Assembly: GCA_000967895.1 (NCBI GenBank)
Contig: FO203512.1
Coordinates: 2,875,350-2,939,349 of the forward strand
Origin: Oleispira antarctica RB-8
Lineage (GTDB): Bacteria > Pseudomonadota > Gammaproteobacteria > Pseudomonadales > Oceanobacteraceae
Reading direction: 5' to 3'
DNA length: 64,000 nucleotides
Shown: one piece after another, positions 15,356-44,600 of the stretch
How the letters are laid out: each line of letters opens with the position of its first letter
Numbering within the stretch: the stretch's first letter is position 1
Notes under the pieces: generated by a model
Databases searched by the model: none
Told to the model about the DNA's origin: nothing
The model's input: the letters and a program-made list of their open reading frames with translations, nothing else
Translations under genes and position numbers: made by a program

Positions 15356-18300
15356 TTAATTTTTAAATGCCTTTAAATCCATATAACTTGGCGTAAGATT
15401 TTTAGCATCCTTAACAAGCCAATTTTTAACCAGGTTTTTTTGCTCGTCTGTTAAATCTTTCCCTGCTGCCTCCATATCAAGCCAAATCATTGCTGGGGTT
15501 TTAGGGTGAATCGGTGGTCTTGTAGCAATGTGACCACCATTCGTTTCTTCAGGTGTCCCTGACAATTTCAGATTAGCTTTTCTTTCCGCTTCTTTAATCG
15601 CATAGTTTTTAACGATTTTTTTATTGGTTTCGACAGTCGCAAAAGCTGTGGCCTTGTCTCCATCAGATATTTCATACCAATGGCTATTTTTATCTTTAAG
15701 ACCTTCAGGATATGGCAAGTTAAAAACACCTTGCGCGGTATCATTACTTAAACCAGATTCACCCTGAGAACTGACTTTAACAAATAAATTCCAATCCCAA
15801 CCAAATTGAGAAGAAGATTCGAAAGTATTTGCAGAAAATGGTTTTATTCCCTCTGTTTTACCCCCGACAATACTGTGGTAATCAAGTGGAGTACTTGCTA
15901 TGTATACAGGTTTTTTATCCTTCTCACCAAAAACCTCATCTTTTTGCTTTTCGAACCACTTAGTTACTCCCCACTTATTTTCATCATTACTCTCATCAAC
16001 CTCAACACTCATTCCAGAAAGTCTAGCCAATACAAGTGGATTCTTCAGCTGCTCTTCAATATCATTATATGCAGGTATATTAGTAGAAGCTGGATCTAGT
16101 TCAAACCTAAGCCCTACAACATCATCTTTGACTATATGGCCAAATGGCGTTAAAGAAGCAGAGTATTCTGGGCCTTCCGTTTCACTTCTAGACGATGTAG
16201 GTAACGGACGATCTCCATTCTTACCCCTTTCACCAAGGTTCATCCCCTTCCGCATTAGCTGAATTCTAGCAGGAACAGATCTAATATCTTTCTTGCGCTT
16301 GCGCTTATCGTAAGCCTCAACATCAAGATCATCGCTTACCACCAGAACAAGTAAATCAACAGGGGAAGTCCATTTGAATGACGGTAAACTCAAAGCGCCA
16401 TTATCGAAAATTGGTGCCTTCACGTTTCCATTTTTACCGTACCAATTTTTATCAGAGAAATGATAATTAGTAGGAGTATCAGAGTCAGCATCTGGATTAA
16501 TAAAACAGAAAGCTTTTGGATTTTTAAATAAAGGCGGATAGTCCTCAGTGCCTGACCCAACTTGAAGGAAATGGCGATCTAGAAAATTTTCTTCACCGCT
16601 ATAAGGTGCTTCTTTGTTGTCAGAAGAGCAAATGGCATAGGGGAAATCTTCAAATTTCTTAATCATTGTCCCACGCCCTGTGAGAACTTCTCTTTTATAA
16701 CTAATTGTTTTCAGTGTTTCGTTATTATACCCAAGCCTAACTTGGTAGCCATAATCCATACTCCACACTTTATCCAGATTATACAGTGACCTTAGCTCAT
16801 GCTCTGCATTCACGTTTAACCAAGCGCTGTATTGATCAGCCATGGGTTTAGTGCCACGGTGCATATTTTTACCAAATTTAAACATAGGATATACAATGGC
16901 GCCATAAACCTCATCTTCACCACCTGTCAATAAAGACTTTTCATTCGCGGTAAGTTTTTCAACATCGATTTTACTTATAAAGCCATCCATAGACGGCCCC
17001 GTCATATCACAAATATCAACTCTCACTGGCCATACACTGTAAGGAATTCTAGTAATCGTACCGGAAGCGATATGTTTTTTTACGCTATCATTGGCATTGT
17101 CAACTAAGAAGCAAACCCTGATTTGATCCAGAGGAGATATCCACTTCCTCTTTGTTTCAAGCCAATTCGGCATTGAAATCCAACCTTCATCACCGCTTGA
17201 GCCACCCTCTCTTACTGAATACGTAATACCACTATAGATATTAGAGTCTAAAGACGAAAACTCAGGTTTCGCCAGTGTGCAAAAATATTCTAGAGATTCT
17301 TCAAGTGAATAATGTATTGGGAAATATTTTTGAAAGTTTGCTTTAAATAAATACTCTTTTTCTGGGGTCATCAACGTTCTGGCATTCTCATAAATAAACT
17401 GCACCGATGAGAATAGATTGGAGGCAATATCAAGAGACTCGTCTCCAAGCAGATCAAGTGCAGATATTGCTGTGGCTGCGGCTTCATAGACTTCATCCCC
17501 CATATCTTTCCATGCCCAATCACGCTCTGCTGGATCTACTTTAACTTCCAATCGATTTGTTTTAATTAAGAACAGCCAGTATTCATCCAGTGCCAGTGTA
17601 GAAACCCCAACATTAGGGATTACCCAGCCATCACTAAGAACGTAGCGTTTAATATATTCAGCTACTTTATAATGCTCTAAGTTATCTTTATAGGTAAATA
17701 CCGTACGGCCATCCATTACATTGTCAAAATCAAACTTGTTTTTATCTGAAAAAGTCTCATCCTCATTCTCCACCTCAACAGAACAACGAATCAATAACTG
17801 CATCAGCCCCGTCAGAGCCTCAGCTCGTAAACGCATTTGTGATTCAAGGTAATAAGCAGGATTAATTACAGCATTTGGTTCTAGCCCTGCTAATAACAAG
17901 GTTTGATTGGCGCGCGATAAATCGTCATTATTTTTAAAGTCCCTTAATACGTTTAAAAATGCTTCGCCATAAATATGCTTTTGCAATAGATCAAAACCGT
18001 CAGACAATAAACCGTTACCAGCTCTAACCACGGTCCACGTAAGTGAAAAAGCTGCATGCGCTGGATTTAATGGCGGCAGACCCGCAATCAAATCGATACT
18101 GCTAAGCAAAGCTTGCCCAACTTTTTCATCCACCCCTGCCATTTGAATCGTCGATAAAGCTCTAATTTTTTCTAAGTGCACCATACCTTCTCTTGAAGGT
18201 TTATATTGCTTGCTAGTATGTAATATTATGATTGCTTCAACGCGACGATTTTTGCGGCGGTTCTCTGCATTATTATTACTTGCGACAGGTTCCGAAAAAC

Positions 18301-20368
18301 CCCGGCCCTCAATTTTTATATTAATCGCCTGATCACTACCAATGCTATTTTTAGCCAATACCTCTTGAACAGACAAGGCACGCTTCACTGATAAAATTTG
18401 GTTGTATTTTTCACTGCCTTTATTATCAGTATGCCCCACCAGTGTGATTTGGTAATCACCCTTAACAGACTTCAATAAAACAATTAGATCATTGAATGTC
18501 TTATCTGGTGCAAAAGCCGCGCTATCGAATACGAAAGTAACATTAACAAAATACGCATCACCAACCCGCGTACTCTGGGTTGTTGTCGCATATTTTTGTT
18601 GAAATTTATCCAGCTCAGCATACTCATCTTCAGTTTCTTTTACTGAAAGTGTAGCCTTAGGATTAGACTCAGAACTATCTGCATCACCCTGCTGACCAGT
18701 CGTGTTAGCAGAGCCTTCCGCAATAGCAATGTCTTCTACAAAAACCTTATGTGAGTAATCTACAAAAACTTTACCCGTATCTTTGATAGCTTTATTTAAG
18801 TCTTTAAAGCCTACATAGGCGCCGCCGATATCATTAAAGGCAGTATAAAGTTCCATTCCTTTAACGACTTTCCCAGCCACTGGCTGAATACTTTTATAGG
18901 CCTTCTTTAAGCTTGCTGGTAAGCCAACGGGGGAAGCTTCTCCTCCTACCTGGGTGGCAAAACTAGAAACACTTGCGGCAATACGTGCTCTGGCAGTTAA
19001 ACCTGAATTATTCACATGATAATCAACAAATTTATCCAGCGCGCCATCGATTGCTCCTGCAGCATCAAACACACCAAAAGCTAAATTAATACTTTCTCGG
19101 GTACGTAAAAATCCTGGCTTATCGTCTGCCATCGAGCCATAAATACCTAGCCCTAAGGTTTTCATAAAAGAAAACTTTGTATCTGCCGAAATAACTTCGG
19201 CAGCCAGTTTAATTTTTCCACTATTGGTTTTCATGGCATGACCAAGGGATTCAATACCCGCCATCTGATTTTCTTGCTTCTGGGTACTTTGTAAACCTTT
19301 TAATACATCGGGATAACGCTGAGGAAACTGGCGCAATAAGCTTTCTTCCATACTAATGGCATCGCCATTAATTATGTCAAACTCACCAGCAAAAGATTGA
19401 ATAGGAAAGCGTAAGCGCTCTACTAAGGTATAACAGAATTCATCACTGCCTTTTGGCCCAGGGCTTATGTTAAATCGTTCACGTGAGGCTGTTACTGTTA
19501 TCTGATACATCTGATCTTGAGCATCAGCACTGGCTTGGAATTGATTTGTTATATCGAAGAAGGTGGCACAATAAATAGTATTTTTTTGATTTTCATCGCC
19601 TGGATTTCGAACAATTGCCTGTCTTTTTTCTGCCGCCTCTGTGCTATCCGCTTTATTGCCACCTAACGCCTCTAAACCACTAAAAAAAACACTCTCGCCT
19701 TTGCGATTTTTAATCGTTACCGTTGCATCGACATAACGTTCATCAGAAAAGGTAATAATAACAGCACGGCTTCTACCCATGACTAAGGCATCGATAATAT
19801 CGCCATCGTAATCATCGCCACGAGAATTTTTCCATTTCGCATATTCTTCGTCAGAAAACTTCTTTTTAACATTCACTTTCTGCAAGATCATTTCGCTAGT
19901 AGCAGCATCAACAGCGTCACTAACAGATTTATTATTTCTAGTAATGATCGTATCGATACTTGCATGAAATTCAGTAATCCACTTTTCATAGCCATAAGCC
20001 GCAAAGCTGTATTTAACCAGATGCATAGGGGGGATATAAACTTTAGGTTTCACATTAGCATCTAATACCACCCCCGAAGCTAAAGAAAAGCCCTGTTTAA
20101 GTGCGGCATCTTCTGTTTTTACGTTCTTACCTGTAACAAAGCTACAAATAGCGCCATGGCTATCTGTCATATACAGATGACGGCTAGTTGTAATTTTTTC
20201 CTTAGTACCAGGTGTGCCTTCTACTTGGGCAGTCGATTTTTTTACCTCAGCTTGATCTTCCACTGTAATAAAACGATTATGTATTGGCCGTGCACTGCCC
20301 TTAGCGATCTCCCCAAGTGCTGTCAAGTTCGCCGACAGTAGATATACATTGCCTATTTTCTTTACCAT
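15356..20368 (-). CDS. Giant T6SS-linked protein with an internal OmpA-like domain
   Basis: 1670 residues; the start at 20368 has AAGGAAG upstream. There is no signal peptide and no clear membrane helix. The only domain I recognise is OmpA-like, at about residues 605-715 (VTFVFDSAAF, TLVGHTDNKGSEKYN, then NAENRRKNRRVEAI), which normally binds peptidoglycan diaminopimelate. The N-terminal 600 residues and C-terminal 950 residues are unfamiliar; the C-terminal part is rich in W, D and Y. It is last in the vgrG unit, 101 bp after a lipoprotein gene. Inference: a T6SS cargo or effector that docks on the cell wall of the target. A structural role is also possible. No toxin active site was identified. 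Confidence 0.7.
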   Translation of the reverse strand: MVKKIGNVYLLSANLTALGEIAKGSARPIHNRFITVEDQAEVKKSTAQVEGTPGTKEKITTSRHLYMTDSHGAICSFVTGKNVKTEDAALKQGFSLASGVVLDANVKPKVYIPPMHLVKYSFAAYGYEKWITEFHASIDTIITRNNKSVSDAVDAATSEMILQKVNVKKKFSDEEYAKWKNSRGDDYDGDIIDALVMGRSRAVIITFSDERYVDATVTIKNRKGESVFFSGLEALGGNKADSTEAAEKRQAIVRNPGDENQKNTIYCATFFDITNQFQASADAQDQMYQITVTASRERFNISPGPKGSDEFCYTLVERLRFPIQSFAGEFDIINGDAISMEESLLRQFPQRYPDVLKGLQSTQKQENQMAGIESLGHAMKTNSGKIKLAAEVISADTKFSFMKTLGLGIYGSMADDKPGFLRTRESINLAFGVFDAAGAIDGALDKFVDYHVNNSGLTARARIAASVSSFATQVGGEASPVGLPASLKKAYKSIQPVAGKVVKGMELYTAFNDIGGAYVGFKDLNKAIKDTGKVFVDYSHKVFVEDIAIAEGSANTTGQQGDADSSESNPKATLSVKETEDEYAELDKFQQKYATTTQSTRVGDAYFVNVTFVFDSAAFAPDKTFNDLIVLLKSVKGDYQITLVGHTDNKGSEKYNQILSVKRALSVQEVLAKNSIGSDQAINIKIEGRGFSEPVASNNNAENRRKNRRVEAIIILHTSKQYKPSREGMVHLEKIRALSTIQMAGVDEKVGQALLSSIDLIAGLPPLNPAHAAFSLTWTVVRAGNGLLSDGFDLLQKHIYGEAFLNVLRDFKNNDDLSRANQTLLLAGLEPNAVINPAYYLESQMRLRAEALTGLMQLLIRCSVEVENEDETFSDKNKFDFDNVMDGRTVFTYKDNLEHYKVAEYIKRYVLSDGWVIPNVGVSTLALDEYWLFLIKTNRLEVKVDPAERDWAWKDMGDEVYEAAATAISALDLLGDESLDIASNLFSSVQFIYENARTLMTPEKEYLFKANFQKYFPIHYSLEESLEYFCTLAKPEFSSLDSNIYSGITYSVREGGSSGDEGWISMPNWLETKRKWISPLDQIRVCFLVDNANDSVKKHIASGTITRIPYSVWPVRVDICDMTGPSMDGFISKIDVEKLTANEKSLLTGGEDEVYGAIVYPMFKFGKNMHRGTKPMADQYSAWLNVNAEHELRSLYNLDKVWSMDYGYQVRLGYNNETLKTISYKREVLTGRGTMIKKFEDFPYAICSSDNKEAPYSGEENFLDRHFLQVGSGTEDYPPLFKNPKAFCFINPDADSDTPTNYHFSDKNWYGKNGNVKAPIFDNGALSLPSFKWTSPVDLLVLVVSDDLDVEAYDKRKRKKDIRSVPARIQLMRKGMNLGERGKNGDRPLPTSSRSETEGPEYSASLTPFGHIVKDDVVGLRFELDPASTNIPAYNDIEEQLKNPLVLARLSGMSVEVDESNDENKWGVTKWFEKQKDEVFGEKDKKPVYIASTPLDYHSIVGGKTEGIKPFSANTFESSSQFGWDWNLFVKVSSQGESGLSNDTAQGVFNLPYPEGLKDKNSHWYEISDGDKATAFATVETNKKIVKNYAIKEAERKANLKLSGTPEETNGGHIATRPPIHPKTPAMIWLDMEAAGKDLTDEQKNLVKNWLVKDAKNLTPSYMDLKAFKN

Positions 20369-20469
20369 GGGGCTACTTCCTTGTTGCTATTCGCTGTCAT
20401 GCTTACACTCTTATAAATCGATTTTATAGAGTTATATTATTTATCTTTCTACGAGCTATCGAATAGAAA

Positions 20470-21480
20470 TTAATAGCCCGTATTGTAAAAACTAAGATTC
20501 CCTGGTGTACGTTCTCTATTCGGGAAAATGAAATTACTGGGTTTGGCTAGATCACCATCAATTACCTCGATCCCTTCTCTATTTTTACCAGAATAGGATG
20601 AGTAAAGTCTCTGCCCTAATGTCATCCCTGCGAACGATTCCCCCCCCCCCCCTAAGTCGGGTATTTTCTGGATAACAGTATTAGGTTCTTCTACTGAGAC
20701 CCAAGACCCGCCACGACTGCTTGCTTTAATATAATATTTGCCATCGGCACTTAATTTTTGCCTTCTCCTAGAATCAAAATCGCCTGGGCGCTTATCTAAT
20801 AGCTCACCACTGGCAAAATCATAGGTGTAAATGCCGTCCCAACCTTCCATAGTGATGACCCGGCCACCGTCTAATAAAAACCAGTGCCCCCAAATCCCAT
20901 CATCGCGAAAACGAGGCTCTATAAAATCGTCTTTTCCCGTAGCTAAGTGATATTGCTTAACGCCTTTTGCAGTATTATAAAGCAAAGAGTCACTATCGGG
21001 CAGCCATTGAAAACTTGGCCAATCCCTACCCCGCGATAATTCAATGACCTGTTTGGTTTCAAGGTCTATTATTAAATTTTGCGTGCCTAATTTTATCGCA
21101 ATATAGCGATTATTGGGTGAGCGTGGCATTGACCAGACAGAACGCCCCGCCCCCCTCTCCGTGCTGAATAATAACTCAGGGCTTACCACTTCTCTAATAT
21201 CGCTGCCATCTAAGCGCATACTCCAGATACCCATATCTTTGTAATCACTTAAGCCTGGTCTGGCCCATCTAAACTGCACTCGCGGGGTACTTAATACATC
21301 GGGGTCATCCCATACTTCGGTTTGATATTCGTAATGAACTTCATACGAAGTTGACCACTTACTTTCTTTTATAAACTTAGGTAGAATCGGCTGACCACAG
21401 CCCGCTAGCAGTAAAACGACCAGCAATAACACGGTATTTATCACTGTGTTAGACAATCTATTCAGCAAGGTATTTTTCAT
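20470..21480 (-). CDS. Lipoprotein with TolB-like beta-propeller repeats and a G13 tract
   Basis: 336 residues. The signal peptide ends in lipobox LAGC (NTVLLLVVLLLAGCGQP). The mature part has TolB/WD-like blades (MRLDGSDIREVVS, SPNNRYIAIKLG, FQWLPDSDSLLYN, SADGKYYIKASS). It starts six bases after the previous gene, with GGATAA as a coupled SD. Codons 276-280 contain 13 consecutive G on the coding strand (plus-strand C run 20640-20652). With 12 or 14 G the frame stops within about 6 or 18 codons, losing the last ~55 residues. It lies directly before the giant OmpA gene; an immunity or accessory role is possible (inference). Confidence 0.75.
   Translation of the reverse strand: MKNTLLNRLSNTVINTVLLLVVLLLAGCGQPILPKFIKESKWSTSYEVHYEYQTEVWDDPDVLSTPRVQFRWARPGLSDYKDMGIWSMRLDGSDIREVVSPELLFSTERGAGRSVWSMPRSPNNRYIAIKLGTQNLIIDLETKQVIELSRGRDWPSFQWLPDSDSLLYNTAKGVKQYHLATGKDDFIEPRFRDDGIWGHWFLLDGGRVITMEGWDGIYTYDFASGELLDKRPGDFDSRRRQKLSADGKYYIKASSRGGSWVSVEEPNTVIQKIPDLGGGGESFAGMTLGQRLYSSYSGKNREGIEVIDGDLAKPSNFIFPNRERTPGNLSFYNTGY
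20640..20652. repeat. Homopolymer of 13 C (13 G in coding sense)
   Basis: Uninterrupted mononucleotide run inside the lipoprotein gene, encoding part of LGGGGE. Runs of this length slip during replication, so the count may vary between cells and between sequencing reads. Confidence 0.95.
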
Positions 21481-21486
21481 TTTAAA

Positions 21487-22710
21487 TTATCCAAAAAGAG
21501 CCTCAAGCCCCTCATCACGAAGTTGCGATGGTGAAGGTTGGTCGCTCATTATTTCATCTTCTTCAGGCTGCGCTATTTCAGCCTCTTCAAGTTCGACATT
21601 CGTTGTTAGTTCTGCGTAGTCAATATTTTGGAACAATACGATAGGCGATGCATATCCGTCGATTGGCGTGCTGTATAAACTGAACTTGCCGCTACTGGGC
21701 AGGTTTTCAAACCTCAATTCATACCAGCCGTCTTTCACGCGGCTTAGCTGATCGCCTTTTAAGGATGAATTGACTTCTATCGTTTGAATCCAATCGGAGT
21801 CTTCGTGCTGTAAAACATATTCATCAAGAGGAATTTTGGAATTATGCGCACCAAATTCACGATGAATAATTAACATTCTATTTTCAGGAATTATGTACTC
21901 AACCGCATGAACAATCACATTATCCGCGCGGGTGTAAGTATCGGTAATTCGCAGAGCTGCAATTGATTTATTAAGTACGGATTGCTTAAGATTTTTATTC
22001 TCTTGGAAATCCTTTTTAACCGTTTTAAATCGATCAGGGATGGCAAAAACTTCAAAGCTGTCGCCATGCTTGGCTCTGAATATTTGACTTTCAAAGTCAT
22101 GCGCCACGTTATTTTTTTGATCAACGGGTAAAGTATTCTGCGTTTTATTAAAGCCGACTAAGTTAATGTAAACTTCGTCGGAAATCGGGGCGTCATTTTC
22201 ACTTTCGACTTCCAGAACAAACATATGACGCTCATTCTGAGATATGTAGCTAACGGGTATCGCTTGCGCTATCTCGACTTCAGGCGCGTTATAAACCGAC
22301 ATCGGCTTAGCCGGCTCGATTTGTTTTAATAGAATGCTAAGTTTATTACATAAGGGAGCAGGAACATGGTCATATACCTCCCAGCCACCATTAACGCCTA
22401 AAAAACTATTATTACTTGATTCAGCAGGCTTCCAATAAACTAATGGGCGCGCTGGCTTGTCCATATCACGATGTACGTAATAACTTGTGCCATTTTTTAA
22501 GCTATTTAGAACGGCATGATTTAAATCGTTTAATGGCAGGCGAGTACGGTCTAGCCATACCTGGAAATTAGTAATCCCACGATTAGGTACTATGCCCCGA
22601 GCCTTGTGCGTTTTTACAGCACTCTCGACATCGGCTTTGGCAAAGAAAGGGTCCTCCAATAGGTGAAGGTGCCGCCAAGATAAATTTTTTGCGTGAATCA
22701 ATTCAGCCAT
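21487..22710 (-). CDS. Uncharacterised protein between vgrG and the lipoprotein gene
   Basis: 407 residues, no signal peptide, no membrane helix and no domain that I recognise. The C-terminus is strongly acidic (ELEEAEIAQPEEDEIMSDQ), which suggests a flexible tail or a partner-binding region. Aromatic and hydrophobic content suggests a folded soluble protein. The start at 22710 is 97 bp after vgrG, and the stop lies six bases before the lipoprotein gene. Genes in this position are often adaptors that load an effector onto VgrG, but there is no visible similarity to the DUF4123 or DUF1795 adaptors. The role is therefore inferred from position only. Confidence 0.6.
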   Translation of the reverse strand: MAELIHAKNLSWRHLHLLEDPFFAKADVESAVKTHKARGIVPNRGITNFQVWLDRTRLPLNDLNHAVLNSLKNGTSYYVHRDMDKPARPLVYWKPAESSNNSFLGVNGGWEVYDHVPAPLCNKLSILLKQIEPAKPMSVYNAPEVEIAQAIPVSYISQNERHMFVLEVESENDAPISDEVYINLVGFNKTQNTLPVDQKNNVAHDFESQIFRAKHGDSFEVFAIPDRFKTVKKDFQENKNLKQSVLNKSIAALRITDTYTRADNVIVHAVEYIIPENRMLIIHREFGAHNSKIPLDEYVLQHEDSDWIQTIEVNSSLKGDQLSRVKDGWYELRFENLPSSGKFSLYSTPIDGYASPIVLFQNIDYAELTTNVELEEAEIAQPEEDEIMSDQPSPSQLRDEGLEALFG

Positions 22711-22807: not shown

Positions 22808-24874
22808 CTAGTTCTGTTGAACCTTGCTACCTTTAAGAATGACGTTACCCGAACCTTCTATTGTGATGTTCGCGCCTTTAATGGATATATCACCATTTTT
22901 GCTCATGGTAATTTGTGCTGAGCCCGCCTTGAATACGATTTCATCACCTGCTTGTACGGTAATGGTTTTACCCACATCAAGGGTTTCTGCTGTACCGATC
23001 GAGGTTGTTCGGTTTGCACCAATATCGCGCTGCTCATCGGTGCCAACGGTTATGGTGTAGTTCGCACCAATGTTGGTGGTATCGTCAGTGGTAACGTCGG
23101 TTATGCGGTTATTACCTACCGATAAAGTTTCATCGGTCGCAATGGTATGGGTACGGTTATTATTAACGGTTAGGTTTTCATCATTGCCAACCGTTTGGGC
23201 ACGATCGTTTACGACTTCAACTATTTCATCATTGCCAACTTTTTCAGTGCGGTCGTGACCAATGGTAATGGTTTCATCGTTAATAACTTCGTCAGTACGA
23301 TCATTACCCACAAAATGACTTTCATCATTTTCGACACTGAGGTTCTGATCTTTTTCGGCGTGAATTGTTAATGTCTCAGAACCTAACGTATCGTCAAAAC
23401 GCAGTTCGTTGAAGGTTTCTACTGAACCGCCCTTGCTACTGCGAGTTTTAATACCGCTTTGATTTTGATTTTCAGGTAGCGCATACGGAGGCATGTTGTC
23501 TGCGTTATACACACGCCCAACAATCATAGGTTTATCAGGGTTGCCTTCAATAAAGTCGACAATCACTTCCTGGCCCATACGTGGAGTAAAGATTGAACCC
23601 CAGTTACCGCCTGCCCAAAGTTGCGATACACGCACCCAACAAGAACTACTTTCGTTGCGCTCGCTGTACCTGTCCCAATGGAAGTGCAGTTTTACACGGC
23701 CATACTCATCGGTCCAAATTTCTTCACCTACAGGCCCTACGACAATCGCTGTTTGATGCCCAGCAATGACTGGCGCAGGCGAATGGAGTGCTGGACGGTA
23801 TTGGGTTTGACTAGGCATGCAAGAAAAACCTATTTCCATTTGAACGTCTTGCTGCTCGCCACTCTCATACGACCCTGTCGAAATGTAGTAATACACCTTG
23901 GTTAATAGATACTCACCATTATTAGCATCCACTGGGTGTTTTGATATGTTAAACAACCCGCCAGCATGAAAATAAGCGCAGTTACTGACACCGCTAAATT
24001 CTTGGGTTGCACAGTGCAGCTGCTCCATTCGTAATTGAGCATAGCGAGTGCCATCGCTTCGCTCGGTATAACCGTTTTGGTAGTCATACACTTCCATATG
24101 AGCATGATCATGATCTTGCGCAATGGAGATATTAGTTTCTAGCCCTGCTCTTGGCTTTTCAAAATCAAAAGCGTTTAGAGCATAACTGCCCGACCCGACA
24201 GCGACGGTATTACTCCAAGACTCAATAAAATGTTTATCACGAACAACTGAGCCAGGAGGGTAAAAAGGAATGTCTTGGCAACCGGTAATTATTTCATGGG
24301 CACCTGGGGAGTCACTGAGTACTAATATGTGCTTATCTTCAAGCTGTTCGAAGTGATAATAAATACCTTCTTGCTCGATTAAGCGATTGATAAAATTCAT
24401 ATCGGTTTCGCGATACTGTACGCAATATTCAATGGGGTTGTAAGTGTCGCTCAAATTAATCTTATAATCCGAAAACCCATTTTCTTCAAAAATATTAGTG
24501 AAAATATCAACCACACTTTGATGCTGAAATATTCGACAATCTTTTGTTTTATCTAAAAATCCAAGCCAAGGTGCAAGTTCGATTTCATATTTTGCGAATT
24601 TACCCTGCCACCCGCGATGACTAATGGCCATTACATGACCATGAAAGTATTTTGCACCAACCAGATGATGCCCTTGCACTTTAATCGATATTGTTGTTCC
24701 TAATAATGATTTCAAATCTAAATCATTATTCTGACAAAGGGTTGTCAGCCTGTGCTGAAATAAAGAATTTAATGCTTCATCACTATTGAACTCTAGCAGC
24801 AGTAAGTCGTTATCAAAGCTGCCAATCGAATTACTAGCAATGATTTCAATCTCGCGATTATCAGAAAAACTCAT
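22808..24874 (-). CDS. vgrG: VgrG/TssI spike protein of the T6SS
   Basis: 688 residues from the ATG at 24874, which has AAGGA in front; an in-frame ATG at 24931 would add 19 residues and is less likely. VgrG trimers form the spike at the tip of the Hcp tube. The gp27-like part contains ETDMNFINRLIEQEGIYYHFE. The gp5-like OB region has GEEIWTDEYGRVKLHFHWD, SSSCWVRVSQLWAGGNWG and GNPDKPMIVGRVYN. From about residue 508 to 625 there is a long beta-helix stalk of V-x-N-D/R-x-T type repeats, ending in KNGDISIKGANITIEGSG. No effector domain is fused. It heads the minus-strand cargo unit and is divergent from tssE. Confidence 0.95.
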   Translation of the reverse strand: MSFSDNREIEIIASNSIGSFDNDLLLLEFNSDEALNSLFQHRLTTLCQNNDLDLKSLLGTTISIKVQGHHLVGAKYFHGHVMAISHRGWQGKFAKYEIELAPWLGFLDKTKDCRIFQHQSVVDIFTNIFEENGFSDYKINLSDTYNPIEYCVQYRETDMNFINRLIEQEGIYYHFEQLEDKHILVLSDSPGAHEIITGCQDIPFYPPGSVVRDKHFIESWSNTVAVGSGSYALNAFDFEKPRAGLETNISIAQDHDHAHMEVYDYQNGYTERSDGTRYAQLRMEQLHCATQEFSGVSNCAYFHAGGLFNISKHPVDANNGEYLLTKVYYYISTGSYESGEQQDVQMEIGFSCMPSQTQYRPALHSPAPVIAGHQTAIVVGPVGEEIWTDEYGRVKLHFHWDRYSERNESSSCWVRVSQLWAGGNWGSIFTPRMGQEVIVDFIEGNPDKPMIVGRVYNADNMPPYALPENQNQSGIKTRSSKGGSVETFNELRFDDTLGSETLTIHAEKDQNLSVENDESHFVGNDRTDEVINDETITIGHDRTEKVGNDEIVEVVNDRAQTVGNDENLTVNNNRTHTIATDETLSVGNNRITDVTTDDTTNIGANYTITVGTDEQRDIGANRTTSIGTAETLDVGKTITVQAGDEIVFKAGSAQITMSKNGDISIKGANITIEGSGNVILKGSKVQQN

Positions 24875-25087
24875 TTGAATTCCTTCCCTGGAAGATATGC
24901 GCTTAAACACAAATTTTGTAGAATATTTCACTTACATTAATATTATTAATGATACTATATTTCAAATATTATTGAACGGTCTTATTAGCTTATAAATCGT
25001 TGTTTGATCACAAAAAAACGTAAGGTTTTTGTATTAGTTTTTAATTTATTACTGGTACTTTTTAATGATTACCTTTAAGGAAAAACA

Positions 25088-32645: not shown

Positions 32646-35600
32646 TCATAATTCCAACTCTGTTTCTTCAAGTAAACGCTTTAATCGATCGGCGTTGTCA
32701 ATTTCATCTTTTCTTAGTATTGAACTGTCACTTGCTAAGAAGATATCAATTGAATTAAAAATTGATGCATTAATATCCTGACCGATATCCGTAGCCACAC
32801 TACGCTCGGCGTTAACATCAGCATCAATATCACCCTCAACATTCAATTTATTAGCAGCAATTGCAAACGTATTACTAGCAATTTTCAAACCACCTCTAAA
32901 GCTAACATTATCACCCGATACACTCACATCTTTTCCTGTGAACTCAACATCATTCAAAAAGATTAAATCACCTTTAGTATTAATAGTAAGGTCATTCGTA
33001 ATATCGAAATCATTAAACGTGATATCTTCAGATGTGTTAATCGATAAGTTACTAGCATCTATTGTTAAGTACTCAAAGCCCGATGTTGAATTAACATCTC
33101 CAGTTGTGACTATGTCCACAACTTCAATATTTTTAAAATCAAAACTAAAACCAGCTTGATTACCAGATTGGCTAAAGCTGTCAACGCCATCTCCTTGAGT
33201 GATGGCTATACTGTTATTGCTATTAGTAATGAATTTATCTGCTGCCGCGACCTGATCAACATTATTCAAATTATTCTGCTGAGCATCTAAATCAGCGGAA
33301 TAAGTTAATGTTAGGCCAGGATTATCACCATCTAACAAGGTAACATTTTCAAAATACACATCATTTGCAATAACTGTATTAGTAATGTCTGTTGTCACAA
33401 ATACATCTTCTGAAATACTACCCATAACAGTCGAAGCTGCTGCGTTCGCTCTCTCTATATTGCTGAGTAAGATTCCATTAACAATAAAATTATTATCATC
33501 AGCCAGCTGCCATGTTTGCTCGATATCAGATGTTACAACATCTTCACCCAATTCACTTTCACCCGCATCGATACTACCAATATTAGAAAATACTAGCTGA
33601 TTAACCATAACGGCATTGTCAGTCGCACTGCCATTAGATGAAACCAGTACAAACTGATCAGCTTGATCAGACCCTATTAAAATACCCAAGCCAGAATTAG
33701 AGACCGTTTCTATTTCGGAAAATCGAATATCTTGCGCTACTATCGTATTATCGATATTCGATACCTGCCAGCGCTGACCATCTTGGCCAATCAAGTTATC
33801 TTCTCCATCAGCGGCAACAACTGCTTGTATATTATTGAAAGTCATATTATTAGATATCAACTCCTGACGAGTGTCTGTGAGCTGAAAACTATCGCTACCC
33901 GCGGATCCATGTACTCGGTTCTCACCAGTACCACCGTCAATATGAGTAATGCTAGCGAAGTCTATTTCTTGGCTAGTCACTTTGTTGCTGCCAGCAGCTG
34001 AACTAGTGGAAAAAAGATTAAACTCATCAGCAGTCTCCATACCTACAAGTTTATTATCCCCAGCCTTTGCATTAACTGATGTTACTTGATTAAACGTTGT
34101 ATTATTTACAGTAACTGATTGCAGCCCCGCTAAATAAAATTCATCCGTATTACTCGTTCCATTTATGCTGCCTTTATTGCCGCTATTAGCAACCTCAGTA
34201 TTCAGAAAACTAATCTCAGATGCTTTAAAGCCTTCCGATAATAGATCCCAAGTATTGGAGCCAGAAACAGTATCAAGTTCGCCCTCTACTGTATTTCCTT
34301 TAGCATCGACTTGCGTTATTTGGTTAAAGGTTATGCCATTAATAGCAACAGACTGAGTGCCTGTAATTTCAAATTCATCTTTAAGCTCAGTACCGTTTAC
34401 CAAGCCAGCGGCACCGCTATTAGCGACTTCAACATTAAAGAAGTTAATCGCAGAAGCCTTAAAGCCATTAGAAAGAATATCCCAGGCATTTGATCCTGAA
34501 ACCGTATCGAATTGACCAAGTGTATTATTCTTAGCATCAACCTTACTTACTTGATTAAACGTTGTGCCATTAGCTTTAACAGATTGAATACCTGAGATGA
34601 CAAATTCATCGTTAAACTCAGTTCCGTTTACAGTGCCAAGCTCTTCACTATTTGCAACTTCGGTATTAGTGAAATGAATATCTTCTGCGCTAAACCCTAC
34701 AGATAAAAGGTCCCAAGTATTTGAACCAGAAACTGTATCCATACCACCGAATGAAGAAGCATCTCTTGCATCAACATCGACCACTTGATTAAAGGTTGTA
34801 CCATTGGCGGCTACTGACTGCGATCCCTTAATAATAAATTGATCATCATTATTAGTTCCATTTAACTTACCTGCGCTCCCACTGTTAGCAATTTCGATAT
34901 GAGTAAATCTGATACCAGTAGATTCAAAACCATCTGATAGAAGAGTCCAAATACTTGAACCAGAAACCGTATCCAGCTCATTCGTTCCTGAACTATCTTT
35001 CGCATCAATACTGGCTACTTGATTAAACGTCGTACCATTAGCGATAACTGATTGATTACCTATAATCATAAACTCATCTTTAAGTTCAGTTCCGTTTAAC
35101 GAACCATTAGCGCTGCTATTAGCCATTTCAGTATTGATGAAACGAATACCTGAAGATTCAAACCCTGCTGCTAAAAGATTCCAAGTATTTGAACCTGATA
35201 CCGTATCTATACCACTCGCTGCCGCCCCCCCCTTTGCATCAACATGTGCTATCTGGTTAAAGGTCGTACCATTTGCAGTAATTGACTGCGTCCCTTTAAT
35301 AACAAATGCATCATCATAATCACTACCATTCAATGTGCCGTTTTCACCACTGTTCACAACGTCAACATTTGTGAAACTAATACCTGAAGATTCAAAGCTA
35401 TTTACTAAAAGAGTCCAATCATTTGAGCCTGAGACGGTATCTAAGTCACCCGAAAATGCATTATCTTTCGTATCAACGTTGGTTACTTGATTAAAACGAG
35501 TACCATTAGCAGCCACTGACTGAGTATTCAAGATGACGATGTCATCTTTAGAATTAGTACCGTTTACAGTGCCGTTATTTCCACTGTTTGCGACTTCTAT

Positions 35601-38600
35601 ATTAAAGAAACTAATACCTGATGCCTTAAAGCCAGTTGTTAACAGATCCCAAGCATTGCTACCCGATACCGTATCAAGTTGCCCAGCGCCTGTTTTACCA
35701 TCAACCTTACCAATACCGTAATAAGTAATACCATTTGCACTGATTGCGTTAGTGCCTTTTATATTGAATTGGTTTTTTCCGTAAGTACCATTAAGGTTGC
35801 GATTCGTAACACCTAGGCTATTAAATTTATTAATAGTTTCAATATTCGTGAACGATATGCCATCAAGTCTTGTTGCTTTCGCTCCCGCCATTGTCCAGTT
35901 AGCTGAATCATTTTGAACGTCATCATCGCCATCACCTGCGGTGACTGCTGTAACTTGATTAAAGGTCGTGCCGTTGGCAGCAACTGATTGAGTACCTGTA
36001 ACAACAAATTTATCTGCAGCGTTTGTACCGTTTAATGTACCTGCTGCACCACTGTTCGCAATTTCTACACCCGTAAAGCTGATATCAAACGCTTCAAATC
36101 CTGAGGCTAATAAATTCCAAGTTGTGCTGCCTGATACCGTATCAAGATCTACTTCAGAATTTCCAAGAGCATCTACCGAACCGATACCGTAATAGGTTAT
36201 GCCATTAGCACTGATTGCATTCGTGCCTTCGATATTTAGCAAGTCTTGTCCAGCCGTACCGTTAAGGTTGCGAGTAGTAATGCCGGTACTATTGAATTGG
36301 TTAATGCTTTCTACATCGGTAAATGCGATGCCTTCAATACTGCTCGCTTCTGTTCCTTGAATGGTCCAGTCTGCTGAATCGTATTGCACATCATCATCGC
36401 CATCACCGGCCGTGACCGAAGTAACTTGATTAAAGGTCGTGCCGTTTGCGGTAACTGATTGAGTACCTGCAACAACAAACTTATCGGCATCGGTTGTACC
36501 GTTTAATGTACCCGCTGCACCACTGTCTGCAATTTCAACACCTGCAAAACTGATATCAAACGCTTCAAACCCTGAGGCTAATAAATCCCAAGTTGTACTT
36601 CCTGATACTGTATCAAGATCTACTTCAGAATTTCCAAGAGTATCTACCGAGCCGATACCGTAATACGTAATCCCCTTGGCATTGATTGCATTCGTGCCTT
36701 CGATATTTAGCAAGTCTTGTCCAGCCGTACCGTTAAGGTTGCGAGTAGTAATGCCGGTACTATTGAATTGGTTAATGCTTTCTACATCGGTAAATGCGAT
36801 GCCTTCAATACTGCTCGCTTCTGTTCCTTGAATGGTCCAGTCTGCTGAATCGTATTGCACATCATCATCGCCATCATTCGCTGTGACCGAAGTAACTTGA
36901 TTAAAGGTCGTGCCGTTGGCGGCAACTGATTGAGTACCTGCAACCACAAACTTATCAACAGCGGTTGTGCCATTTAAAATACCTGCTGCACTGCTGTTTG
37001 CAACTTCAACACCCGTAAAGCTGATACCAAAGGCTTTAAAACCATCAGCTAATAAATCCCAAGTTGTGCTACCTGATACAGTATCAAGATCTGCTGTAGA
37101 ATTTCCAAGTGCGTCAACCGTACCAATACCATAATAAGTAATGCCATTAGCACTGATTGTATTAGTGCCTTCGATATTTAGTAGGTCTTGTCCAGTCGTA
37201 CCGTTAAGGTTGCGATTGGTAATGTTAGTACTGTTGAACTGGTTAATGCTTTCAACATCGGTAAACGCGATGCCTTCAATAGTGGTCGCTTCCGTTCCTT
37301 GAATGGTCCAACCCGCTGAGTCATATTGCACATCATCATCGCCATCACCTGCAGTGACCGAGGTAACCTGATTAAAGGTCGTGCCATTGGCGGCGACTGA
37401 TTGAGTGCCTGCAACAACAAACTTATCCTCAGCGGTTGTACCGTTTAAAATACCTGCTGCACCACTGTTAGCCGTTTCAACGCTGGTAAAGCTGATACCA
37501 AAGGCTGCAAAACCACCCGCTAATAAATCCCAAGTCGTGCTGCCCGTTACCGTATCAAGATCTACTTCAGAATTTCCAAGAGCATCTACCGAACCGATAC
37601 CGTAATAGGTTATGCCATTAGCACTGATTGCATTCGTGCCTTCGATATTGAACAGGTCTTGTCCAGCGGTGCCGTTAAGGTTTCGATTGGTAATGTCTGT
37701 ACTGTTGAACTGGTTAATGCTTTCAACATCGGTAAACGCGATGCCTTCAATACTGGTCGCTTCTGTTCCTTGAATGGTCCAATCCGCTGAGTCGTATTGC
37801 ACATCATCATCGCCATCGTTCGCAGTGACCGAAGTAACTTGATTAAAAGTAGTGCCGTTAGCCGCTACTGATTGAGTACCTGCGACAACAAACTTATCCG
37901 CAGTGGTTGTACCGTTTAAAATACCCGCCACACCACTGTTTGCAGCTTCAACGCTGGTAAAGCTGATACCAAAGGCTTTAAAACCATTAGCTAATAAGTC
38001 CCAAGTCGTGCTGCCTGATACCATATCAAGATCAGCTTCAGAATTCCCCAGAGCATCTACCGTACCAATACCGTAATAAGTAATGCCATTAGCATTGATT
38101 GTATTAGTGCCTACGATATTTAGTAGGTCTTGACCAGTCGTACCATCAAGGTTGCGATTGGTAATGTCTGTGCTATTGAATTTGTTAATACTTTCAACAC
38201 CGGAGAATGCTATGCCATTAACCGTTGTTGCTTTTTCACCCTCGATCGTCCAGTTAACGACATCGCTCTGAACATCATCATCGCCATCACCGGCCGTGAC
38301 TGAAGTAACTTGATTAAAGGTCGTGCCGTTGGCGGCAACTGATTGAGTACCTGCAACAACAAACTTATCGGCAGCGGTTGTGCCATTTAATGTTCCAGCC
38401 GCACCGCTGTTCGCAATTTCTACTCCCGTAAAGTTGATACCAAAGGCTCCAAAACCTTCAACTAATAAATTCCAAGATGTGCTACCTGATACCGTATCAA
38501 AATCAGTTTCAGAATTTCCAAGAGCATCTACCGAACCAATACCGTAATACGTAATACCGTTAGCACTGATTGCATTAGTGCCTTCGATATTTAATAGGTC

Positions 38601-41600
38601 TTGGCCAGTCGTACCATTAAGGTTGCGATTGGTAATGTTAGTACTGTTGAACTGGTTAATGCTTTCGACATCGGTAAACGCCATGCCTTCAATACTGGTC
38701 GCTTCCGTTCCTTGAATGGTCCAACCCGCTGAATCGTATTGCACATCATCATCGCCATCACCTGCTGTGACCGAGGTAACCTGATTAAAGGTCGTGCCAT
38801 TGGCGGCGACTGATTGAGTGCCTGCAACAACAAACTTATCCTCAGCGGTTGTACCGTTTAAAATACCTGCTGCACCGCTGTTTGCAGTTTCTACTCCCGT
38901 AAAGTTGATACCAAAAGCTTCAAAGCCACCCGCTAATAAATCCCAAGTCGTGCTGCCCGTTACCGTATCAAGATCTACTTCAGAATTTCCAAGAGCATCT
39001 ACCGAACCGATACCGTAATAGGTTATGCCATTAGCACTGATTGCATTCGTGCCTTCGATATTTAGCAAGTCTTGTCCAGCCGTACCATTAAGGTTGCGAG
39101 TAGTAATGCCGGTACTATTGAATTGGTTAATGCTTTCAATATTTTTGAAAGAGATACCTTCAATACTTGTTTCTTCTGATCGCTGGATAGTCCAGTTATC
39201 AGAATCATATTGAACATCATCATTATCGAATACTGCCACATCTTCACTTTCTCCCGCATCAACAGTGCCAATACCATAATACGTAATGCCATTAGCACTG
39301 ACAGCATTGGAATTGCCTTTTTCTACGCTAAAGGAATCATTACCTGTTGTTCCTGCTAAAGAGCGGTTGGTGGTATTAAGACTATTATCTTTATTGACTG
39401 TATCTATACCAGTGAAATCAATACTTCCTATTTTGGTTTCATTAGCATCTTTTACAAACCAGCTATTTGAATCATGTGCAATGTCATCATTACCTTTACC
39501 AGCATTGACCGTACCAATATCATTAAACACGATACCGTTAGCTGTTAATCTATTATCTGAGATGGCCGAAAACCTATCTGCTTGGTCTGAGCCTGCTAAG
39601 GTATTTAATAAATCACCTTCAATTGGGGTATAACTGGAAGTAACATTTTTGAAACCGTAAAACTCTGTTCCACCAAAAGATAGCTGATTATCTATACCAC
39701 TAACCAAAGAGAAGGTAGAGGCAGTTGAACTAGTAAAACTAATAGTTTTTAGTTCATCTAATTGCGATAAGTCATAGATTTTAAAATTGGAGAATAATGT
39801 GGCATCAGCCCCGGTTAGCGAAGCGTTGAATGAATTAGAGCTGGCATCAAAACTTATAACAGATTCAAGAGTTACTTTGGAGTCAAATATAAATTTATCG
39901 TTATTATCGATGCCATCGACCGATAATAACGTTAAAAAACCAGATGACGTAACTACTTCCTTTCCATTAACTACAACGACGACTTGATAGTTCCCACCGT
40001 CTTTCTTTAATAAGAATGTTTCTGTACCGGCTTCAGTTAAACCAAAAAATTTAACCTCATTGATATTCCCCCCAACAGTATAATTTGTAGAGTTTATTCC
40101 CTCATCAGAACCAACACTAAAGTTTTTTTGAAAACTATATGCACCATTATCTAAATTTAAACTATATCCCAGTGTAGAACCTGGAGCAGCTAGAGTATCA
40201 CCGACTTCCCCTTCCATTCTTTCAAAATCACTAAAAGTAATGCCTCTATTATTATCAGTGATAGTGCTGTTTGTATCTAACGTGAATGATTCATCAACGC
40301 TGTTCTTCGTATTTAAAATATCACCATACAAACTCTTTTTAGCATCAACTCTCTCAATACCATTAAAAGTAAAAGTAAGATCAGTTGTAAACTTCACCTG
40401 ATTACTAACTTCAGTAGTTTCATACACCTCGGTTCTAGACGTGCCAATTAAAGAACCACCCGACTGACTATTCGCTACTTCAGTATTCGTAAATGACATC
40501 CCTGATCCAGCGAAGCCAAGAACTCTATAACTACCGTCGGAGCCAGCAATCTCTATTTGCCAAGTCTGGCCAACTCCAACTACTGTATCTAAATCATTAC
40601 CCTTAGCATCTACAGTACCAATACCGTAATAGGTAATACCGTTGGCACTGATTGTATTAGTGCCTTCGATATTTAGTAGGTCTTGGCCAGTCGTACCATT
40701 AAGGTTGCGATTGGTAATACCAGAACTGTTATTTTTATTGATAGTTTCAACATCAGAAAACGTTATGCCGTCAACACTTGTTTCTTCTGTTCCTTGAATC
40801 GTCCAATTAACCGAATTACTCTGAATGTCATCGTCGCCATCACCAGCATTAACGGTACCAATACCATAGTAAGTAATGCCATTAGCACTGACTGCATTGC
40901 TTCCTGCAGCTGTAAAGAAATCTTCTCCTGCGGTTCCTGCTAAAGAGCGGTCGGTAATACTAGCACTGTTATATTTATTAATGCTTTCAATATCAGAAAA
41001 TGCGATACCTTCAATACTGGTCGCTTCCGCTCCTTGAATAGTCCAATCACTTGAATCACTCTGAACATCATCACTTCCATTACTACCATTAACAACAGTA
41101 ACATTAGTAAACGTTGTACCACTCACTAAAACAGATTTACTGCCCTTAATTACGAAACTGTCCGCAATCAGAGAACCATTTACCGTTCCATCTGAACCAC
41201 TATCGGCGGTTTCAACATCGATGAAGCTGATTTCATTAGCTTTAAAACCAGTCGATAATAAATCCCAAGTCGTGCTACCAGAAACACTGTCAAGATGTTC
41301 AGCATTGGTATTAGCTTGAGCATTAACCGTAGTGATGTTGTTAAAGGTGGTACCGTTGACTAGAACAGATTGATCACCGGTAATTGTAAAACTGTCCGCA
41401 ATCAGAGAACCGTTTACAGTACCTGCTGAACCACTATCGGCGGTTTCAACATCGACAAAGTTAATTTGGTTAGCCGTGAAACCGTTTTCTGAAAGACCCC
41501 AAGTCGCGCTGCCGGAAACACTATCAAGATGTTCGGTATTGGTATTGGTTTTTGCATTGACGGTTGTAATATTGCTAAAGGTGGTGCCATTGACTAGAAC

Positions 41601-44600
41601 CGATTGATCGCCGGTAATTGTAAAACTGTCCGCAATCAGAGAACCGTTTACCGTTCCATCTGAACCACTATCGGCGGTTTCAACATCGATGAAGCTGATT
41701 TCATTAGCTTTAAAACCAGTCGATAATAAATCCCAAGTCGTGCTACCAGAAACACTGTCAAGATGTTCAGCATTGGTATTAGCTTGAGCATTAACCGTAG
41801 TGATGTTGTTAAAGGTGGTACCGTTGACTAGAACAGATTGATCACCGGTAATTGTAAAACTGTCCGCAATCAGAGAACCGTTTACAGTACCTGCTGAACC
41901 ACTATCGGCGGTTTCAACATCGACAAAGTTAATTTGGTTAGCCGTGAAACCGTTTTCTGAAAGACCCCAAGTCGCGCTGCCGGAAACACTATCAAGATGT
42001 TCGGTATTTGTATTAGCTTGTGCATTAACCGTAGTGATGTTGTTAAAGGTGGTACCGTTTACTAGAACAGATTGGTCACCCGTAATGGCAAAACTGTCCG
42101 CAATCAGAGAACCGTTTACAGTACCTGCTGAACCACTATCGGCGGTTTCAACATCGACAAAGTTAATTTGGTTAGCCGTGAAACCGTTTTCTGAAAGACC
42201 CCAAGTCGTGCTGCCGGAAACACTATCAAGATGTTCGGTATTGGTATTAGCTTGTGCATTAACCGTAGTGATGTTGTTAAAGGTGGTACCGTTTACTAGA
42301 ACAGATTGATCACCCGTAATTTCGAAACTGTCCGCAATCAGAGAACCGTTTACTGTACCTGCTGAACCACTATCGGCGGTTTCAACATCGATGAAGCTGA
42401 TTTCATTAGCTTTAAAACCAGTCGATAATAAATCCCAAGTCGTGCTACCAGAAACACTGTCAAGATGTTCAGCATTGGTATTAGCTTGTGCATTAACGGT
42501 AGTGATGTTGTTAAAGGTAGTACCGTTGACTAGAACAGATTGATCACCCGTAATTTCGAAACTGTCCGCAATAAGAGAACCGTTTACCGTTCCATCTGAA
42601 CCACTATCGGCGGTTTCAACATCGATAAAGCTGATTTCATTAGCTTTAAAACCAGTCGATAATAAATCCCAAGTCGTGCTACCAGAAACACTATCAAGAT
42701 GTTCGGTATTGGTATTGGTTTTTGCATTGACGGTTGTAATATTGCTAAAGGTGGTGCCATTGACTAGAACCGATTGATCGCCGGTAATTGTAAAACTGTC
42801 CGCAATCAGAGAACCGTTTACCGTTCCATCTGAACCACTATCGGCGGTTTCAACATCGATGAAGCTGATTTCATTAGCTTTAAAACCAGTCGATAATAAA
42901 TCCCAAGTCGTGCTACCAGAAACACTGTCAAGATGTTCAGCATTGGTATTAGCTTGTGCATTAACGGTAGTGATGTTGTTAAAGGTGGTACCGTTGACTA
43001 GAACAGATTGATCACCCGTAATTTCGAAACTGTCGGCAATAAGTGAACCGTTTACCGTACCTTCTGAACCACTATCGGCGGTTTCAACATCGATAAAATT
43101 TATTTGGTTAGCAGTAAAACCGTTTTCTGAAAGACCCCAAGTCGTGCTACCAGAAACACTATCAAGATGCTCAGTATTTGTATTAGCTTGTGCATTAACC
43201 GTAGTGATGTTGTTAAAGGTGGTACCGTTTACTAGAACAGATTGGTCACCCGTAATGGCAAAACTGTCCGCAATCAGAGAACCGTTTACAGTACCTGCTG
43301 AACCACTATCGGCGGTTTCAACATCGATAAAGTTTATTTGGTTAGCAGTAAAACCGTTTTCTGAAAGACCCCAAGTCGTGCTGCCGGAAACACTATCAAG
43401 ATGTTCGGTATTGGTATTAGCTTGTGCATTAACCGTAGTGATGTTGTTAAAGGTGGTACCGTTTACTAGAACAGATTGATCACCCGTAATTTCGAAACTG
43501 TCCGCAATCAGAGAACCGTTTACTGTACCTGCTGAACCACTATCGGCGGTTTCAACATCGATGAAGCTGATTTCATTAGCTTTAAAACCAGTCGATAATA
43601 AATCCCAAGTCGTGCTACCAGAAACACTGTCAAGATGTTCAGCATTGGTATTAGCTTGTGCATTAACGGTAGTGATGTTGTTAAAGGTAGTACCGTTGAC
43701 TAGAACAGATTGATCACCCGTAATTTCGAAACTGTCCGCAATCAGAGAACCGTTTACTGTACCTGCTGAACCACTATCGGCGGTTTCAACATCGATGAAA
43801 CTGATTTCATTAGCTTTAAAACCAGTCGATAATAAATCCCAAGTCGTGCTACCAGAAACACTGTCAAGATGTTCGGTATTGGTATTAGTTTTTGCATTGA
43901 CGGTTGTAATATTGCTAAAGGTGGTGCCATTGACTAGAACCGATTGATCACCCGTAATTGCAAAACTGTCGGCAATAAGTGAACCGTTTACCGTACCTTC
44001 TGAACCACTATCGGCGGTTTCAACATCGATAAAGCTGATTTCATTAGCTTTAAAACCAGTCGATAATAAATCCCAAGTCGTGCTACCAGAAACACTGTCA
44101 AGATGTTCGGTATTGGTATTAGCTTGAGCATTAACCGTAGTGATGTTGTTAAAGGTGGTACCGTTGACTAGAACAGATTGATCACCCGTAATTGTAAAAC
44201 TGTCCGCAATAAGAGAACCGTTTACTGTACCTTCTGAATCACTATCGGCGGTTTCAACATCGACAAAGTTAATTTGGTTAGCCGTGAAACCGTTTTCTGA
44301 AAGACCCCAAGTCGCGCTGCCGGAAACACTATCAAGATGTTCGGTATTGGTATTGGTTTTTGCATTGACGGTTGTAATATTGCTAAAGGTGGTGCCATTG
44401 ACTAGAACCGATTGATCGCCGGTAATTGTAAAACTGTCCGCAATCAGAGAACCGTTTACCGTTCCATCTGAACCACTATCGGCGGTTTCAACATCGATGA
44501 AGTTGATTTCATTAGCTTTAAAACCAGTCGATAATAAATCCCAAGTCGTGCTACCAGAAACACTGTCAAGATGTTCAGCATTGGTATTAGCTTGTGCATT

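Follow-up and report, generated by a model that had tools for sequence, protein, structure and literature searches.

The Gene Neighbourhood of the G Tract

Oleispira antarctica RB-8 is an oil degrader of cold seas. The window analysed here (the whole stretch of 64,000 nucleotides of its contig FO203512.1) contains a T6SS region with genes for TssE, TssF, TssG, TssC, TssB, TssA, a kinase, Fha, TssJ, TssK, TssL, TssM and a TagF-phosphatase, together with an Hcp-like gene that scores below the cut-off of its family. The genes at issue lie on the minus strand in the order vgrG, unknown gene, lipoprotein gene and gene of a giant OmpA-domain protein, as a preliminary description of this DNA had stated, and its view that the gene carrying the tract encodes a lipoprotein is likewise borne out by the lipobox LLLAGC. 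The features are as follows:

22808..24931, minus strand: gene of the spike protein VgrG (TssI), first in the likely operon (domain search)
21487..22710, minus strand: 407-aa protein of no known family, adaptor-like by position only, its stop 6 bases before the start of the lipoprotein gene
20470..21480, minus strand: 336-aa lipoprotein, predicted beta-propeller and likely immunity protein (lipobox LLLAGC, then Gly; no Pfam family)
20640..20652, minus strand: G13 tract of the lipoprotein gene, from codon 277 to the first base of codon 281 (offset 828)
20622..20624, minus strand: TGA reached at 12 or 15 G, overlapping the in-frame Met286 codon as ATGA
20585..20587, minus strand: TAA reached at 11 or 14 G (frame arithmetic)
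15356..20368, minus strand: probable T6SS effector partnered with the lipoprotein, 1670 aa, its single OmpA domain at residues 622-708 (domain search; linkage in 17 of 21 loci)

Relatives of the 407-aa gene occupy the same place in loci L013 and L015, and in most Vibrio loci this position is taken by a different protein, of about 575 aa. A gap of 101 bases separates the lipoprotein gene from the OmpA-domain gene downstream. Domain searches detected no toxin domain in the 1670-aa protein, the model of its C-terminal part was poor (pLDDT 50), and its GxSxG-like and metal motifs showed no consistency among homologues. At 20362-20400 lies a frame of 12 codons (MTANSNKEVAPW, then a stop) that runs into the beginning of the OmpA gene in another reading frame; the same leader reads in frame with the OmpA protein in P0029 and P0030, and possible explanations are the way the start was annotated or a C4 that has changed slightly in length.

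Other repeats were observed in the T6SS region. A gene at 32646-47162 encodes a 4838-aa protein without a Pfam call, whose start, by our reading of the sequence, resembles a two-partner-secretion (haemagglutinin-type) exoprotein; a ShlB/FhaC-type transporter is encoded beside it at 47280-49619, and the gene contains repeat arrays of 471 bp (7.5 copies) and 234 bp (17.3 copies). Within the T6SS Fha gene (52772-54319; FHA and T6SS_FHA_C domains), CCCAAG is repeated about 13 times at 53565-53645. Since this unit is a multiple of three, the array would encode a linker of variable length and would not act as an on/off switch.

The G13 Tract and Its Reading Frames

Positions 20640-20652 read as C13 on the plus strand, that is, as G13 in the coding sense of the minus-strand lipoprotein frame. 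The coordinates and sense given in the preliminary description were exact; its placement of the tract within the gene also stood, and its codon numbering (276-280) was one codon off. When tract lengths of 8-18 were simulated in silico, the frame was open at 10, 13 and 16 G, with products of 335-337 aa. At 12 or 15 G the reading met the TGA stop and gave products of 285-286 aa, and at 11 or 14 G it met the TAA stop and gave products of 297-298 aa. At 12 G the TGA lies 5 more codons on, ending the product at 285 aa, and at 14 G the TAA lies 17 more codons on, ending it at 298 aa, in agreement with the earlier estimates of about six and about 18 codons and with the claim that the frame is open at 13 G. 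Thus, as is characteristic of contingency loci, a change of one base shuts the frame in silico and a change of three bases keeps it.

The possibility that the tract exists for the sake of a glycine linker was rejected on codon usage. In the 26 other genes of the window, GGG accounts for 115 of 1331 glycine codons (8.6%), and the four runs of at least three glycines in those genes are written with GGT and GGC only. With GGG so rare among glycine codons, the G13 is to be regarded as a feature of the DNA and not as a glycine linker.

Polarity on the downstream giant gene, which had been put forward as possible, is unsupported, as an AAGGAAG of its own precedes the ATG of the OmpA gene by seven bases, and the DNA between the tract and that gene showed nothing resembling a terminator. 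Promoter-like sites showed no excess (10 versus 12 in shuffles). The ATGA overlap at 12 G could also permit restart at Met286, further lessening polarity.

Predicted Structure of the Lipoprotein

Under the usual +2 rule, glycine after the lipobox cysteine predicts the outer membrane, and the lipoprotein would sit on its periplasmic face. The AlphaFold2 model, for which the input consisted of 21 aligned sequences from the 27 homologues listed (own included), reached a mean pLDDT of 84.6 and a pTM of 0.83, and it has the repeated antiparallel blades and closed ring of a beta-propeller. The best Foldseek matches were TolB and WD40 propellers, with TM-scores of about 0.5 and 12-19% identity, and a weak sequence match to TolB was also obtained (E 0.001). 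The predicted fold is thus like that of TolB/WD40 propellers; however, the protein described here is lipidated, and its gene is associated with vgrG instead of tol-pal genes, and the fold resemblance is to be read at those low values of TM-score and identity. In the excerpted part of a 2012 survey, beta-propellers are described as not yet encountered among immunity proteins (PMC3482391). No later case of a beta-propeller immunity protein appeared by title among the best-ranked literature matches, and later work may differ.

In the predicted model, the strand at residues 269-274 precedes the tract, and the last blade (about 283-318) and then a closing strand (327-332) come after it. Among nine segments of the protein, mean conservation was lowest for residues 275-285 (0.34), with means of 0.66-0.75 for residues 31-150 and of 0.45-0.58 for residues 151-336 apart from the loop. 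The tail lost on slippage contains K313, Y332 and N333, which are invariant in the homologue alignment, and, judged on the model, one blade and the closing strand would probably be missing from the slipped product.

Rarity of the Tract in the Genome and in the Order

The genome of O. antarctica is one contig of 4,406,383 bases. On both strands together it contains 69, 16, 2 and 1 G runs of at least 7, 8, 9 and 10, respectively; the G13 described here is the sole run of at least 10 in these 4.41 Mb, and the next longest is 9. The expected number of runs of at least 13 per genome was 0.011 by extrapolation of the tail and 0.007 from base composition. By chance, such a run would therefore occur with a probability of about 1% in a genome, which makes the tract an outlier but not an impossible one; with 13 versus 9 and about 0.01 expected, it stands far above the genome background in the manner of a contingency locus. 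The other run of 9 is a G9 inside a frame of 479 codons, which we take to be mpl. Since 13 of the 16 runs of at least 8 in the whole genome, the G13 included, sit in open frames exceeding 160 codons with the G's in the coding sense, the shorter G runs of this genome carry no message. Two of the 16 fall inside the window, one of them a G8 at 35225-35232, which reads as G in the coding direction of the 4838-aa gene at codon 3977. Besides the G13 tract, the homopolymers of at least 8 in the window comprise two T8, an A8, an A9 and a C8.

Across the order, G runs of at least 10 were found in 58 of 93 genomes, own included, and in two of the six of the genus. In a survey of 30 loci from 15 genomes with such runs, amounting to 21 distinct tracts, five tracts formed G runs in the coding sense of a frame of at least 150 codons, and the 21 were not concentrated in T6SS genes. 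A poly-G habit of the family aimed at T6SS immunity genes is thus unsupported. In L082 (8000-8012) and L083 (7951-7961), poly-G tracts of 13 and 11 occupy the same intergenic place in two species of one genus of the family, 123 bases from a 225-aa gene that looks MotA/ExbB-like, and this is a natural length difference within the family. L084 (7466-8296) has an in-frame G10 in a 276-aa gene without a Pfam family, following a 402-aa gene that also lacks one, and in L085 (6666-8150) an in-frame G10 belongs to an Rhs-repeat gene of 494 aa, after which comes a small gene without a family.

The Tract Site in Homologues

Matches to the lipoprotein were found in six of the 93 genomes of the order (own included), one of them weak, and the scan of genome contigs for homologues gave 17 loci. 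Plasmid records added four Vibrio matches; two of these loci were fetched, and neither has a G run of at least 8. No G run above 7 was present in the 24 homologous genes with DNA, several of which are close kin or tandem copies of one another (G051, with E 4.7e-4 and a frame of 1083 codons, was left out of the homologue counts, and L020, at a contig end, out of the run count). The longest run, of 7, belongs to L015, an uncultured Oleispira, and lies at a different place. The three closest proteins, which are 80-83% identical and come from protein-only records, read LEGGAF or LRERYTF where LGGGGESF is found here; as the codons of LEGGAF permit at most 8 G and those of LRERYTF at most 3, these proteins exclude 13 G. 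A homologue check for a conserved run at this place, proposed in the preliminary description, thus came out negative, and a conserved switch was ruled out. The refuting test set in that description likewise finds the run lacking in homologues. Retention of the repeat at its place in relatives, which is usual in contingency loci and not obligatory, is seen in 0 of the 24.

The tract site measures 6, 4, 4 and 5 residues in the four close sequences, and just one other internal indel separates them. This variation in length suits a recent expansion by slippage and equally suits a loose loop.

Copies of the Lipoprotein Gene and a Likely Role in Immunity

Lipoproteins of this family were compared in 21 loci (G008, G077, L015-L031, and L120 and L121, which are two of the four Vibrio plasmid records), some of them of one species. 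The gene is directly upstream of an OmpA-domain T6SS protein in 17 of the 21, among which the OmpA protein of L023 looks split into two frames. Where no OmpA match lies next door, L017 and L019 have no such protein, L025 has a frame of 243 aa, and L020 reaches the contig edge. Adjacency to the effector gene across genomes, as expected of an immunity gene, is thus the rule among these 21 loci.

The lipoprotein gene is repeated in 6 of the 21 loci, with three copies in L018 and two in G008, G077, L027, L016 and L120; the copies of L120 flank the effector, and one of the two in L016 is broken. In G077, L018 and L027, neighbouring copies are separated by stubs, which over 63-109 residues are 72-94% identical to the beginning of the OmpA protein of their own locus. 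Tandem lipoprotein copies separated by such cut-off 5' pieces of OmpA genes are found at:

L018, 7893-11680
L027, 6279-8858
L014 1285 to L011 2382 (one G077 region)

In L016 (6330-7444), the second copy is downstream of the effector and is broken into two frames. The contig, titled Blastopirellula, may be misbinned, as its genes are Oleispira-like (for example, a DUF1287 protein with 81% identity).

Extra or orphan copies associated with effector remnants, another mark of immunity genes, thus occur as repeats in 6 of the 21 loci, stubs in three, and orphans in L017 and L019. The lipobox predicts the periplasmic side, and the OmpA domain suggests that the putative effector works there. In Vibrio cholerae, extra immunity genes are similarly kept beside the effector module, and the excerpted account ascribes them to displacement of older effectors (PMC5361080). 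Because the extra copies beside effector leftovers, and the orphans, resemble these arrays, we regard the lipoprotein, on gene position and arrays, as the probable immunity protein of the OmpA protein, which would be its effector. The preliminary description had suggested an immunity factor as one option, and the arrays in relatives strengthen this predicted role. The resemblance has its differences, since here the lipoprotein gene is upstream of the effector, the stubs are 5' ends of effector genes, and the copies are 78-91% alike. Identity at this level also fits plain duplication, and duplication may have made the copies in relatives, unlike in the V. cholerae arrays; the window itself has a single copy.

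Slippage, Switching and Competing Explanations

The reading that we tentatively prefer, at somewhat short of even confidence, is that the G13 lies in a working, hypermutable gene for a likely immunity protein, in which slippage would likely switch the product between a whole propeller and one lacking the last blade. The mutation would be replication slippage at the G13, and the run would be a recent expansion in this lineage, placed in a loop that tolerates length changes of whole codons. Tracts of 10, 13 or 16 G would give the whole propeller and other lengths the form without the last blade. With 12 or 14 G a cell would no longer be protected from the predicted effector of its siblings, so OFF cells should persist only where the T6SS is silent. 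In Neisseria meningitidis, according to the excerpted account, homopolymers of at least 8 mostly proved variable on re-sequencing, and G/C runs form the largest class of the strong candidates, half of the genes (PMC5084427). By analogy, the G13 should slip more than its surroundings. The contingency loci of N. meningitidis, with Campylobacter jejuni named alongside, likewise carry a long G run in coding sequence in which slips of one base truncate the product (PMC5084427); however, they comprise many tracts, against a single one in this genome, and concern surface antigens, against a likely immunity protein, and here MutS and MutL are intact, the run is not common to relatives, and the tract is known from one assembly. 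MutS (an open frame of 884 codons) and MutL (682) being intact, the rate of slippage should be lower. The 90% protein cluster of the lipoprotein has one member, and the tract length is known from one genome. The phase variation by G13 predicted in the preliminary description is partly supported: the tract, its length and its frames are as given there, and conservation in relatives has no support (0 of 24).

Nearly as likely as a working switch is a neutral history, a quite possible if doubtful alternative, in which the run expanded by chance in a tolerant loop, mismatch repair and selection for an open frame hold it at about 13 G, and OFF cells are purged mutants, with no switch at all. The absence of the run from all homologues examined, the position of the tract in the least conserved segment and the intact MutS and MutL all favour this explanation, as does the order-wide picture, where long G runs occur in most genomes (58 of 93) and just 5 of 21 tracts are in the G sense of a long frame. 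The loss of immunity ought moreover to be costly when siblings fire, which counts against a switch. On the other hand, the genome's own G runs jump from 9 to 13, and a G13 is within the range that slips readily in other bacteria in the account cited (PMC5084427).

The more specific proposal of phase-variable immunity, in which poly-G slippage would flip a beta-propeller lipoprotein that protects from the cell's own effector on and off, is unlikely. Clearly less probable still is that the tract switches and the lipoprotein is not an immunity protein, aiding instead the loading or delivery of the OmpA protein or having a surface role, so that switching would alter cargo delivery or contact. The position of the gene upstream of the OmpA gene, between the adaptor-like gene and the effector, is consistent with such a role, as are the better conservation of the N-terminal half than of the C-terminal half and the fact that surface factors are the usual phase-variable targets (PMC5084427). 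A precedent is TasL of Vibrio fischeri, likewise a predicted outer-membrane lipoprotein encoded with a T6SS, which serves contact; however, TasL exceeds 380 kDa and has fibronectin type III repeats in the excerpted account (PMC9040878). Our protein has 336 aa and no Pfam family and shows no sign of kinship, and on size and domains it was ruled out as a TasL homologue. The extra copies with effector stubs and the copies without an effector also fit immunity better than delivery.

An error of sequencing or finishing, with a true tract of 12 or 14 G or a mixture, would mean that the gene is shut or already variable in this strain. Long homopolymers are hard for several sequencing methods, but 13 G gives exactly the frame that homologues conserve to their last residues (for example, Y332 and N333), which makes an error very unlikely. 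Transcriptional slippage, by which single cells would mix whole and shortened lipoprotein with the DNA unchanged, is hardly credible, as G/C runs are regarded as less liable to it than A/T runs (PMC5084427), even though long homopolymers can slip during transcription and the ATGA shared by the 12-G stop and Met286 could permit a restart.

Implications for T6SS Self-Protection

Were the tract to slip in living cells, as in the reading that we prefer, T6SS self-protection would be stochastic within a clone; no such case appeared by title among the literature matches on T6SS with phase variation or repeats. If immunity were truly phase-variable, each clone would seed a few cells that siblings can kill, or cells that live only while the weapon is silent, and kin protection would itself be a contingency trait. 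Apart from the tract, the results point to a T6SS module in Oleispira, Paraglaciecola, Vibrio and Aliivibrio that pairs a predicted beta-propeller lipoprotein with a giant protein carrying an OmpA domain.
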